Shown: one piece after another, positions 15,647 to 61,362 of the stretch
Position numbering within the stretch: position 1 is the first letter of the stretch
How the letters are laid out: the number at the start of each line of letters is the position of its first letter
NCBI RefSeq assembly: GCF_004364645.1
Contig: NZ_SOAW01000001.1
Span: 1,984,001-2,048,000 of the forward strand
Source of the DNA: Naumannella halotolerans
GTDB lineage: Bacteria; Actinomycetota; Actinomycetes; Propionibacteriales; Propionibacteriaceae
DNA: 64,000 nt
Direction: 5' to 3'
The notes under the pieces: model-generated
Seen by the model: the letters and a program-made list of their open reading frames with translations, nothing else
Told to the model about the DNA's origin: nothing
Database searches by the model: none
Made by a program: the position numbers and the translations under genes

Positions 15647-16020
15647 TCCGCTATCTGTCGATCGATGACCTTCTGCATGTGGCCGAAAGGACACTCCCGT
15701 CCGTGTCCGTCCGCGACGCCGGGCTGCTTGCCTCTGCTGTCGCGCGACCGGCACAGACGGTGTTCGGGAAGGAAGCCTATCCCGGCCTCTTCACGAAGGC
15801 GGCTGCGCTACTTCACTCGACCGCACGCAACCACGCCCTGGTCGACGGAAACAAGCGACTCGCCCTTGCCGGAACGATCGCGTTTCTGGGTATCAACGGG
15901 TATCGACTGACGCTCAGCAATGATCAGGCCTACGCCTTGATCATGGACGTTGCTTCCGGTCGGACGAACGAGTTGGAAGAGATCTCCAGCCGCCTCAGCG
16001 CGGGAAGCGCACCGTGGTGA
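15643..16020 (+). CDS. Doc/Fic-family toxin
   Basis: A 125-aa protein with the Doc core motif HALVDGNKRLAL, a close variant of HxFxDANKR that binds nucleotide phosphates. Doc proteins phosphorylate EF-Tu and stop translation until neutralised. The start GTG overlaps the antitoxin stop codon, so expression is coupled. Codon use resembles the host but with more A/T-ending codons (GTATCGACTG, TTGGAAGAG), consistent with acquisition. It sits between cysE and the chorismate mutase gene on the opposite strand. Confidence 0.85.
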   Translation: MIRYLSIDDLLHVAERTLPSVSVRDAGLLASAVARPAQTVFGKEAYPGLFTKAAALLHSTARNHALVDGNKRLALAGTIAFLGINGYRLTLSNDQAYALIMDVASGRTNELEEISSRLSAGSAPW

Positions 16021-58032: not shown

Positions 58033-58042
58033 GCCGATCGGT

Positions 58043-58078
58043 CGAAGCGGGTGGCACCTCTGGGTGCCACCCGCTTCG
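58043..58078 (+). terminator. gltA terminator
   Basis: A 16-bp perfect stem (58043-58058 with 58063-58078), loop TCTG, 10 bp after the stop codon. Confidence 0.87.
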
Positions 58079-58123
58079 TCGTTTGCGGGAGGCCGGAGTC
58101 GAGCCGCGGCTCCCCGCCGGCGT

Positions 58124-58183
58124 CGAATGAGCCGGCCTCGACTGAACCGGCCTCGACTGAACCGGCCTCGACTGAGCCGGAAT
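58124..58183. repeat. Four 15-bp tandem units
   Basis: Units CGACTGAACCGGCCT at 58139 and 58154 are identical; those at 58124 and 58169 are variants. Confidence 0.88.
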
Positions 58184-58210
58184 GGATTGAGCGGAAGGGA
58201 TGGGCAGCGC

Positions 58211-58290
58211 GGAAGATGACGGCTGGCACTCCCCCAACCGCGGAACCGAGCAGTTTCGGGGCGAAATCTCATATCGAACCGTCGCTTTCC
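58211..58290. repeat. Intergenic repeat element, copy D
   Basis: 80 bp from GGAAGATGACGG to CCGTCGCTTTCC, the most diverged copy; interior poorly conserved but length kept. Confidence 0.65.
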
Positions 58291-58595
58291 GCCTCACCCG
58301 ACGGCGAGCACGTTCCCAGCCGGTTGCGACTGGGCCCCGCTGCCAGGTCGTCGATGCGGAACTGCACCCGTCGGTGTCGCCGCCCGACGGCACGGTCGAA
58401 CAAGTCTCATCGCAGGCACCCTCTACCGCCGGACGAGGCTGTTGTGCCCAGCGCAGCACGCCCTGGATCACCCCGGCCAGCGTGCATGCCACGTCACACC
58501 AACCGATCAGGGATTGGGTGCGCCTGATCAGAATCAGTACGTCTGGACCAGGGGGTGTGGTCCAGGATCCTGCGACCAGCACGCGCGGCTTTCGC

Positions 58596-58675
58596 GGAGA
58601 ACGACGGCCCACGCCGCCCAAACCGAGAAATCTGGCCCAGATCCGGTCGAATCTGCCAGCGAGCCGTCACTTTCC
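58596..58675. repeat. Intergenic repeat element, copy E
   Basis: 80 bp from GGAGAACGACGG to CCGTCACTTTCC with a perfect central palindrome ATCTGGCCCAGAT (58630-58642). Confidence 0.85.
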
Positions 58676-58886
58676 CACGGTTTCCACGTGCCCAAGCCGA
58701 TGAAGCGATCAGGGAACCGCGAGCGCCGAGCAGCCCCGGCACCAAGGCCGAAATCCGACTCCGGACCACCAGCCCGCTCGCCATGTCACACCAGCGGATC
58801 AGGGATTGGGTGCGCCTGATCAGAATAAGTACGCCTGGACCAGGGGGTGTGGTCCAGGATCCTGCGACAGCACGTTCGGCTTTCGC

Positions 58887-58966
58887 GGAGAACGACGGCC
58901 CACGCCACCCAAACCGACGAATCTGGCCCGGATCCGGTCGAATCTGTTGCCGAGCCGTCACTATCC
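58887..58966. repeat. Intergenic repeat element, copy F
   Basis: 80 bp from GGAGAACGACGG to CCGTCACTATCC; central ATCTGGCCCGGAT has one mismatch. Confidence 0.85.
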
Positions 58967-59094
58967 GCGGCACCCCGATTCGGAGCACCTGCCGTGCCCG
59001 CAACGTCACGCCATCGGATCAGGGGATCAGTGCGTCTGGACCCGGGCCCGGTGTGTCGTGCGGATCCTCCGGGCCCGCACCCGCAGCTTTATCC

Positions 59095-59175
59095 GGAGAA
59101 CGACGGCCCACGCCGCTCAAACCGCCGATTTGGGGCACAGATGCGGACGAATCTGCTGGCGAGCCGTCACTATCC
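59095..59175. repeat. Intergenic repeat element, copy G
   Basis: 81 bp from GGAGAACGACGG to CCGTCACTATCC; central region diverged (GATTTGGGGCACAGAT). Confidence 0.8.
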
Positions 59176-59337
59176 ACGATGCAGCCGAGGCGATGAGGTG
59201 ATCGGGGTGGTGCGAGCGCAATCCCTCCGCCAGCCAAGCACCCCAAGCCCGCAGCCAAGTCCGTCGGCACCGACGACCGCTGCGCGACGATCACGGGTTC
59301 GCCCAATCCAGTGCCGCGCCACTCGAGCACGCACCAC

Positions 59338-59460
59338 CACGCCCAACACGCAACTCCGCGCCCCAAGAAGCAACGCCGCGCTCGGGCACGCGGCTCCACG
59401 CCCAACACGCAACTCCACGCCCAACACGCAACTCCGCGCTCGGGCACGCGACTCCACGCT
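59338..59460. repeat. Compound tandem repeat (19-bp unit within a larger unit)
   Basis: CACGCCCAACACGCAACTC occurs at 59338, 59397 and 59416 (the last two adjacent). A second block GCGCTCGGGCACGCG is present at about 59378 and 59437. Confidence 0.8.
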
Positions 59461-59585
59461 CCGACGGGCAACTGCGCCCCGATACCACGGGGGCCGCGCT
59501 CGGAATGTTGCGGCGCCGCGCTCCGGTGCGGGTCGACAGGCTTCGCTTTCGGGGTTCGGGCGCTGGTCGCCTAATCTGATCGGCG

Positions 59586-60308
59586 ATGAAACCCGAGGCC
59601 GCACCCGACCACCGCCGCGAGGTGGTCTCCTTCGTTCGCCAGCGAGCGAGGATGACACCTGCCCAGCAGCGGGCCTGGTCCGACTTTGGTCCGCGCTACC
59701 TGCTCGAGGTCCCTCACGGGATCGGGCACGGTGAACTCGCCGCCACCGAGCCGCTGGACACCGCCGCTGCCTTCGGGCGGGAGGGCGAGTTGATCGTCGA
59801 GATCGGCTCCGGCGCCGGCGACTCCTTGGTCGCCATGGCTGCCGAACGACCCGATGCCGACATCCTGGCCTTCGAAGTGTTCCAGCCGGGCATCGCCGCC
59901 ACCATGATCAAGTTGGACGCCGCCGGGGTGGACAATGTCCGCATCATCGAAGGCAACGGCGTGCACGGCCTTCGACAGCTTTTCCCCGAGGGCTCCCTGT
60001 TCGGCATCTGGGTCTTCTTCCCCGATCCGTGGCCGAAGACCAAGCACCACAAGCGCAGGTTGATCAACAGCAACTTCGCCACCTTGGCCGCATCCCGGCT
60101 GGCCCCGAACGGTGAGTTGCTCTGTGCCACCGACTGGGCGCCCTACGCCGCCCAGATGCGGAAGGTGCTGGACGCCGAACCGCTGTTGATCAACGACCAT
60201 CCCGGCAGTTGGGCACCCCGGCCCGCAGGTCGCCCGATCACCCGGTTCGAGGGTCGCGGGGAACGCGCCGGCCGAGACATCCACGACCTGTCGTACCGAC
60301 GTCGATGA
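59586..60308 (+). CDS. trmB: tRNA (guanine-N7)-methyltransferase
   Basis: A 240-aa methyltransferase forming m7G46 in tRNA. The SAM loop is IVEIGSGAGDSLVAMA; the catalytic and tRNA-binding motif FFPDPWPKTKHHKRRLINSNF is diagnostic. ATG 59586 lies eight bases after a TAATCT -10 box, suggesting leaderless translation. Its TGA overlaps the ATG of a small repeat-peptide ORF; truA follows. Confidence 0.95.
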   Translation: MKPEAAPDHRREVVSFVRQRARMTPAQQRAWSDFGPRYLLEVPHGIGHGELAATEPLDTAAAFGREGELIVEIGSGAGDSLVAMAAERPDADILAFEVFQPGIAATMIKLDAAGVDNVRIIEGNGVHGLRQLFPEGSLFGIWVFFPDPWPKTKHHKRRLINSNFATLAASRLAPNGELLCATDWAPYAAQMRKVLDAEPLLINDHPGSWAPRPAGRPITRFEGRGERAGRDIHDLSYRRR

Positions 60309-60553
60309 TCGGTTGCCTGAGGCCGATGATCGGTCGCACGACAACCGACGAGCCGTCCCATGACACCCACGAGCCGTCACACGGCACCCACGCCCTGTCG
60401 CACGACACCCACGCCCTGTCGCACGACAACGACGCCCTGTCGCACGACAACGACGCCCTGCCGCACGACAACGACGCCCTGCCGCACGACAACGACGCCC
60501 TGCCGCACGACACCAACGAGATTGCGGCAATGATCAGGGGAAAGCGGCCATGA
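60305..60553 (+). CDS. Putative heptapeptide-repeat small protein between trmB and truA
   Basis: An 82-codon frame whose ATG overlaps the trmB stop (ATGA) and whose TGA overlaps the truA ATG (ATGA). After MIGCLRPMIGRTT come eight 7-residue units (DEPSHDT, HEPSHGT, HALSHDT, HALSHDN, DALSHDN, then DALPHDN twice and DALPHDT), then NEIAAMIRGKRP. Each unit has a His-Asp pair, which could bind metal. No ribosome site is needed if coupled. The array could equally be a non-coding minisatellite that happens to be in frame, so confidence is moderate. Confidence 0.45.
   Translation: MIGCLRPMIGRTTTDEPSHDTHEPSHGTHALSHDTHALSHDNDALSHDNDALPHDNDALPHDNDALPHDTNEIAAMIRGKRP
60347..60514 (+). repeat. Eight exact 21-bp tandem units
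   Basis: Units at 60347, 60368, 60389, 60410, 60431, 60452, 60473 and 60494, type GACGCCCTGCCGCACGACAAC. Similarity rises from left to right; units 6 and 7 are identical. Confidence 0.95.
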
Positions 60554-61362
60554 GGTTCCGAATCGACCTGGCCTATGACGGCACCGATTTCTCCGGGTGG
60601 GCGAGCCAACCCGGACTGCGGACCGTCCAGGGCGAACTCGAGACCTGGCTTCCGCGCGTACTGCGACTGGCCGGCCCCACCCCGCTGACGGTGGCCGGGC
60701 GCACCGATGCCGGAGTCCACGCCAAAGGGCAGGTCGCCCATGTCGAGCTCCCCGACGAGACCAATCCCTCGGTGCTCACCCGGCGCCTGCAGCGTGTACT
60801 CCCCGCCGACCTCACCATCTGGTCGATCGGCCCGGCGCCCCCGGGATTCGACGCCCGCTTCTCGGCGATCTGGCGACGCTACTGCTACCGGTTGACCGAT
60901 CGGCCACTCGATCCGCTGCAGCGCCACCAGGTCACCGTGGTACGCGAACCGCTGGACCTGCCGGCAATGAACGCGGCCGGGCAGAGCCTGCTCGGTCTGC
61001 GCGACTTCGCACCGTTCTGCCGCCGCCGCGAAGGGGCGAGCACCATCCGTACCCTGACCGAGCTCAGCGCCAGCCGGACCGAGACCGGTGTGGTCGAGCT
61101 GACCGTCCGTGCCGACGCGTTCTGCCACTCGATGGTCCGCTCGCTGACCGGTGCGCTGGTCGCAGTGGGCCAGGGACGTCGCGATCTGACCTGGCTGTCG
61201 GAGGTGGCGGCCAGTCCGCTTCGCCCTTCCTCCATCCAGGTGATGGCGGCCGGTGGGCTGACCTTGGAGGAGGTCGGCTACCCGCCTGCCGCCGACCTCG
61301 CCGACCGGGCCGAGACAGCCCGGGCGCGTCGCGACCCGAGGGAACTGAACTGTCATGGCTGA
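60550..61362 (+). CDS. truA: tRNA pseudouridine(38-40) synthase
   Basis: A 270-aa TruA: RIDLAYDGTDFSGWASQPG, catalytic Asp in GRTDAGVHAKGQVAHVEL, and FCHSMVRSLTGALVAVGQG. It modifies U38-40 of the anticodon arm. ATG 60550 has a GGGGAAAG ribosome site and overlaps both the upstream ORF and, at its 3' end by 8 bp, the next methyltransferase gene. Another tRNA-modification gene (trmB) is just upstream. Confidence 0.95.
   Translation: MRFRIDLAYDGTDFSGWASQPGLRTVQGELETWLPRVLRLAGPTPLTVAGRTDAGVHAKGQVAHVELPDETNPSVLTRRLQRVLPADLTIWSIGPAPPGFDARFSAIWRRYCYRLTDRPLDPLQRHQVTVVREPLDLPAMNAAGQSLLGLRDFAPFCRRREGASTIRTLTELSASRTETGVVELTVRADAFCHSMVRSLTGALVAVGQGRRDLTWLSEVAASPLRPSSIQVMAAGGLTLEEVGYPPAADLADRAETARARRDPRELNCHG

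Follow-up and report, generated by a model that had tools for sequence, protein, structure and literature searches.

The tRNA-modification genes trmB and truA of Naumannella halotolerans are separated by an array of 21-bp tandem repeats that is private to this locus. We consider it probable that this minisatellite grew as the trmB tail was duplicated in tandem over an ancestral ATGA overlap of the two genes, and that the old truA start now opens the 82-codon frame, ORF82, which lies between them. The process would most likely be an ordinary one, tandem duplication, in an unusually telling place. The locus was analysed within a stretch of 64,000 nucleotides, here called the window, and positions refer to it unless a locus number (L) is given.

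Both flanking genes are intact, and each matched its family model above the cut-off (Table 1). The preliminary description had reported an open reading frame overlapping trmB and truA by ATGA, and this was borne out at both ends. Stop/start overlaps of 4 nt, as here, or of 1 nt are a feature of genes coupled by termination-reinitiation. In the window the truA frame has no start codon further upstream, and the gap between trmB and truA is 241 nt. The codon-usage score of ORF82 from its ATG was 14.5, narrowly under the threshold of 15 used by the gene caller. No promoter or terminator pattern was found at the locus, and the RNA folded no better than shuffled sequences (z 0.15). The stretch 5' of trmB (58033-59585) is without a called gene; it contains a direct repeat (58477-59178) with two copies about 291 bp apart that are 89-91% identical, plus a third partial copy, and directly 5' of trmB a second tandem array with a period of 19 or 58 bp (59322-59459).

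Table 1. Features of the trmB-truA locus, with positions in the window.
Feature	Position	Strand	Basis or remark
trmB, tRNA (guanosine(46)-N7)-methyltransferase	59586-60308	+	NCBIfam TIGR00091, 143.7 bits (cut-off 112.65); Pfam PF02390
trmB tail resembling the unit, likely seed of the array	60276-60300	+	Alignment of 25 columns, 21 of them matches and one a gap
First ATGA overlap, trmB stop / ORF82 start	60305-60308	+	Where the sister species has its truA start
Insert between trmB and truA, lineage-specific, 245 bp	60305-60549	+	Neither the sister species nor any of the other 25 family loci with adjacent trmB-truA has it
ORF82, 82-codon frame bridging trmB and truA	60305-60553	+	ATG at 60305, TGA at 60551-60553
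trmB stop, TGA	60306-60308	+	
First recognisable copy on the left, shifted in phase by one base	60326-60346 (about)	+	Wraparound alignment; extra base at 60347
Eight in-phase 21-bp units	60347-60514	+	Peptide (H/D)(A/E)(L/P)(S/P)H(D/G)(T/N)
Shine-Dalgarno-like AGGGGAAA, inside the insert, 5' of truA	60536-60543	+	Duplex -7.0 kcal/mol for the upstream stretch tested
Second ATGA overlap, ORF82 stop / truA start	60550-60553	+	truA ATG at 60550
truA, tRNA pseudouridine(38-40) synthase	60550-61362	+	NCBIfam TIGR00071, 162.7 bits (cut-off 142.85)

The array had been described as eight exact 21-bp units in frame. There are indeed eight such units, consecutive, in frame and each exactly 21 bp long, but the copies are not exact: they comprise seven different sequences, with only the units at 60452 and 60473 forming an identical pair, and within the core adjacent units are single steps apart. 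The units between 60389 and 60514 matched the consensus at 18-21 of 21 positions and the units at 60347 and 60368 at 14-15 of 21; at the right edge the match was 8/21 at 60515 and 4/21 at 60536. The likeness thus peaks in the middle of the array and drops again at its right end, contrary to the earlier impression that the repeats become more alike toward the right. Tandem Repeats Finder (TRF) reported 8.5 copies with 89% matches and a score of 218. The maximum in 20 Markov-1 shuffles of the window was 72, which places the array far above chance as a head-to-tail minisatellite. Wraparound alignment revealed single-base insertions at 60296 and 60347, with more indels from 60526 onward, where the right edge is degenerate. 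Because the leftmost copy is one base out of phase, it reads RTTT and not SHDN. A BLAST search of the organism's own genome for other copies of the unit gave a single match, the array locus itself. Outside the array the unit was found only at three mismatches, in six places as against eight for a control read backwards.

Next to this, the trmB-truA junction was compared across relatives. In the sister species, the sole other genome of the genus compared, trmB and truA overlap directly by ATGA without an insert, and the trmB tail and the truA head are each identical to the window at 37 of 45 nt. In all 26 family loci with adjacent trmB and truA, the truA frame has a start codon no more than 11 nt from the trmB stop, and in 20 of them it is exactly at -4; these starts are in-frame start codons and not mapped starts. 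An extra 20 junctions were chosen by eye from match coordinates that suggested long gaps (one of them, L173, repeats L021). Here too the truA-frame start was within 11 nt in 20/20 and at -4 in 15/20, most of the long apparent gaps reflecting either matches that fell short or a truA N-terminus that may reach further upstream. In the family, trmB was found in 182 and truA in 188 of 197 genomes, and gaps were counted for the examined loci only. Among the genomes other than its own, 55 were matched and 29 taken as loci, of which L017, L029 and L030 were left out as trmB is absent from the locus. A contig search with trmB added 80 named loci from Microbacterium, Leucobacter and other actinobacteria at 45-52% identity, which stand outside the junction counts. 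As the junction is closed in these relatives, it was this lineage that gained the 245 bp. The preliminary description had suggested counting repeat units at this junction in close relatives; the comparison was made, and it showed absence of the insert in place of any change in copy number.

The unit resembles the end of trmB, which points to growth from the trmB tail, and tandem duplication of this tail is on sequence grounds the most likely origin of the array. The array consensus aligned to the trmB tail with a score of 16, which was attained by 8 of 185,238 windows of sampled DNA from the same genome, in four places. The periodic (wraparound) alignment passes from the trmB tail into the array, and by inspection the tail peptide DIHDLSYR and the repeat peptide DTHALSHD are in the same codon phase. 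The sister species has the tail of trmB without the array. Equal or better matches to the unit occur elsewhere, at 15811-15826 in the window (score up to 19), in L121 (17) and in L133 on the reverse strand (16), and since these three places match the unit as well or better, the assignment of the trmB tail as the seed rests on its adjacency. Two further observations count against the duplication account: the beginning of the insert (60305-60325) is scarcely like the unit, and 245 is no multiple of 21.

From these data we infer the following mechanism and order of events. In the ancestor trmB and truA would have overlapped by ATGA, with the translation of truA probably dependent on ribosomes finishing trmB. 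The trmB tail would then have been tandemly duplicated over the ATGA overlap, and the 21-bp unit would afterwards have expanded and drifted. A duplication across such an overlap would be harmless to both genes, because the first copy retains the upstream stop and the last copy retains the downstream start. Preceded by largely unaltered sequence, the former truA start would now begin the 82-codon frame that ends at the new truA start. Descent from a coding trmB tail would also explain why the array shows a His-Asp pattern and uses codons much as genes do.

The array was also compared with other tandem arrays between genes. In 864 kb of the same genome 83 intergenic tandem arrays were called, the trmB-truA array included, with periods distributed as 33:24:26 over the remainders 0, 1 and 2 modulo 3. 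The array shares with minisatellites (VNTRs) its short tandem units, homogeneous core and degenerate edges; it differs in leaving an open bridging frame and in its position, the two genes at this junction overlapping in the sister species. For genes of at least 150 codons, called with a simple codon-usage caller that also served for the Shine-Dalgarno comparison below, 19 of the 83 arrays had an edge no further than 15 bp from a gene 3' end, as against 8.3 expected (reached in 0/300 permutations). With places near gene 5' ends barred, the excess was reached in 1/300 permutations; near 5' ends there were 3 arrays as against 7.9 expected. The second 400 kb alone gave 9/38 at 3' ends (3.9 expected, 5/300 permutations) and the sister species 6/23 (1.6 expected, 1/300 permutations). 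A weaker excess was seen for arrays that span the stop codon, 17 as against 9.9 expected (10/300), and 5 as against 3.5 in the sister species (64/300). The trmB-truA array is not one of the 19, because its start as called by TRF is 25 bp beyond the stop. Arrays that repeat the last codons together with the stop were observed in L203 (2529-2631), L204 (7485-7540), L207 (11809-11901), L123 (15632-15679) and L214 (15214-15264). Of the 45 intergenic arrays in the first sample, nine fall within a single 20-kb stretch (L127, 2581-13896).

A hot spot exactly at stop codons was considered and was not borne out. The 13 bases ending at the stop recur downstream in 9/245 genes, as against 0-2 for positions inside genes; yet the count remains at 4-9/245 further downstream. 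Duplications would therefore be tolerated from the stop onward, and a special mechanism is unnecessary. At an ATGA overlap this tolerance would also spare the downstream gene, because the last copy retains its start. The sister species showed no such step in recurrence, with 0/72 at the stop and 0-2 downstream. A literature search that covered few subscription journals, with sources accessible in part, found nothing on point about tandem repeats seeded at stop codons. We also considered, as a second once-overlapping case, a junction in L127 between genes that we take to be comEC-like and holA-like, where a 265-nt gap with a 44-bp array is present in the own genome. Among the 12 loci compared (one of them its own), the distance to the homologous holA start was 40-188 nt in five others; the search for holA near the comEC-like gene gave a partial match 1,252 nt away in the sister species (L184), and five loci were without a comEC match. 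As a test case this junction was uninformative.

The duplication account concerns the origin of the frame and is compatible with a function for it, so that both can hold. ORF82 may be a selected bridge that is translated by termination-reinitiation and kept open for the synthesis of TruA, in which case the frame would matter and the peptide sequence would be irrelevant. A coupling bridge of this kind is plausible from the arrangement of the genes; as a full account, selection included, we regard it as possible but somewhat doubtful. The close trmB-truA junction is conserved in the examined family loci, and the start of ORF82 is the site of the sister's truA start, with a Shine-Dalgarno match absent in both (0.1 kcal/mol here and 0.3 in the sister). 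As its start is the old truA start, ORF82 could maintain termination-reinitiation: if reinitiation took place at 60305 in the ancestor, it should also occur now and would carry ribosomes through ORF82 to the truA start. In reporters in Haloferax volcanii and E. coli, according to the accessible part of the report (PMC10666635), a spacing of about 20 nt almost completely abolishes coupling. On this evidence the 241-nt gap should break it, and without the bridge coupling should be lost. The first 464-kb sample has 13 co-directional gaps that contain an array, of which the one between trmB and truA is alone in being bridged, and the eight repeat units are in phase.

Against selection for a bridge stands the ease with which such a frame arises. 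When intergenic stretches of 241 nt were drawn at random, the bridging frame was open in 34% of them, and among shuffles it was open in 515/2000 (26%); multiplied by one third for the length, this gives a chance of about 0.1 (0.09-0.11). Four of the six frames of the array are open, and we accordingly discarded the argument that an open frame means a coding one. Where co-directional genes of the first 464-kb sample were 30-900 nt apart, 10 of the 118 gaps were bridged, trmB-truA and nine others; the rule was permissive, accepting ATG, GTG or TTG and allowing the downstream start to lie up to 90 nt from the one called. The bridging frame also contains a +1 indel. Furthermore, truA may start on its own because of its AGGGGA-type Shine-Dalgarno-like site, which at -7.0 kcal/mol is stronger than the sites of 64% of genes. 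A site at least as strong is found for 36% of genes, in 13.5% of random 17-mers and at 5 of the 20 relatives' truA starts at -4, for which the median was -5.0. The suggestion in the preliminary description of a spacer that keeps translational coupling thus agrees with the anatomy of the locus, with its old start and its handover to truA, and falls short of proof in view of the chance of 0.09-0.11 and the nine other bridged gaps. Compared with known gene pairs coupled by termination-reinitiation at ATGA, the locus has the same 4-nt overlaps, here at both ends, and a first start without a Shine-Dalgarno match; it differs in that the middle frame is a new low-complexity repeat and no gene of known function, and that the coupling is putative.

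Mycobacterial interspersed repetitive units (MIRUs) have units of tens of bp, about 50-100. They were reportedly first described by Supply et al. in 1997. According to the accessible text of a 2025 review (PMC12548453), the MIRUs of mycobacteria are seemingly mobile and insert at start codons, where their internal frame becomes coupled to the gene at -4; the extremities of their small ORFs overlap the contiguous ORFs, as stated in the available part of another review (PMC4473831). The present array has the same type of site and the same double overlap: going by these descriptions, both it and the MIRUs are operon-borne repeats placed at an ATGA overlap, and both carry a co-directional small frame that overlaps the two flanking genes. 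By analogy, the trmB-truA frame could work like a MIRU. That the array is itself a MIRU-like mobile repeat inserted at ATGA with target duplication is nevertheless very improbable. Its unit is 21 bp, resembles the adjoining trmB tail and has no dispersed copies in its own genome, and the array was apparently grown from the tail of the neighbouring gene and not inserted. A mobile element in general was rejected on similar grounds, as there was no second copy and no phage match, and a search of the plasmid collection gave a single hit, to Nonomuraea, which is confined to the truA section of the query.

The array frame was also assessed as a protein. Its codon usage is coding-like, with 0.263 per codon in comparison to a median of 0.247 for the genes of the window and a GC3 of 0.95. 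This counts against a purely non-coding reading, in which gene-like codon usage must come from a coding seed or from chance. As proof of translation it was set aside, since 6 of 44 other intergenic arrays also reach 0.263 in the best of six frames; in the same comparison 10/44 reach at least 0.157, most of them short. The differences between neighbouring units fall on codon positions 1, 2 and 3 as 3:6:4, in comparison to 89:75:133 in 37 arrays inside genes, so that third positions are not enriched (4/13 as against 133/297), a weak comparison with only 13 differences. Homologues of ORF82 were found in one of 57 genomes, its own, with no match in the other 56. A match to Pfam HALZ (E 0.0008, 20 bits, under the cut-off of 28.1) looks like a low-complexity artefact. 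No family above its curated cut-off and no PDB relative were found, and an AlphaFold model of the single sequence without alignment had no confident fold (pLDDT 59.7, pTM 0.11).

The preliminary description had proposed that ORF82 is a functional small protein in which the His-Asp repeats bind metal; although His and Asp are regularly spaced through all eight units, this reading is not supported and has hardly any likelihood, as the pattern resembles the TrmB tail, one repeat copy is frame-shifted, and the searches and substitutions above give no sign of a conserved protein. The peptide itself is presumably functionless, and as a protein ORF82 is most likely unimportant.

In a wider sense, tandem duplication across a 4-nt overlap might provide a transposon-free route to new bridging frames, although we offer this tentatively and think it rather unlikely to hold as a whole. 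The duplication would spare both genes and at the same time separate them, and the old downstream start would become that of a new small protein, whose translation would be needed to feed ribosomes to the displaced gene. On this view ORF82 is a very young example, and the arrays across stop codons elsewhere in the genome would show the process still running. In comparison with its sister species, the trmB-truA locus of N. halotolerans offers a clear before-and-after pair for the separation of closely joined genes, and it allows a direct test of whether a new intervening frame keeps the second gene translated.
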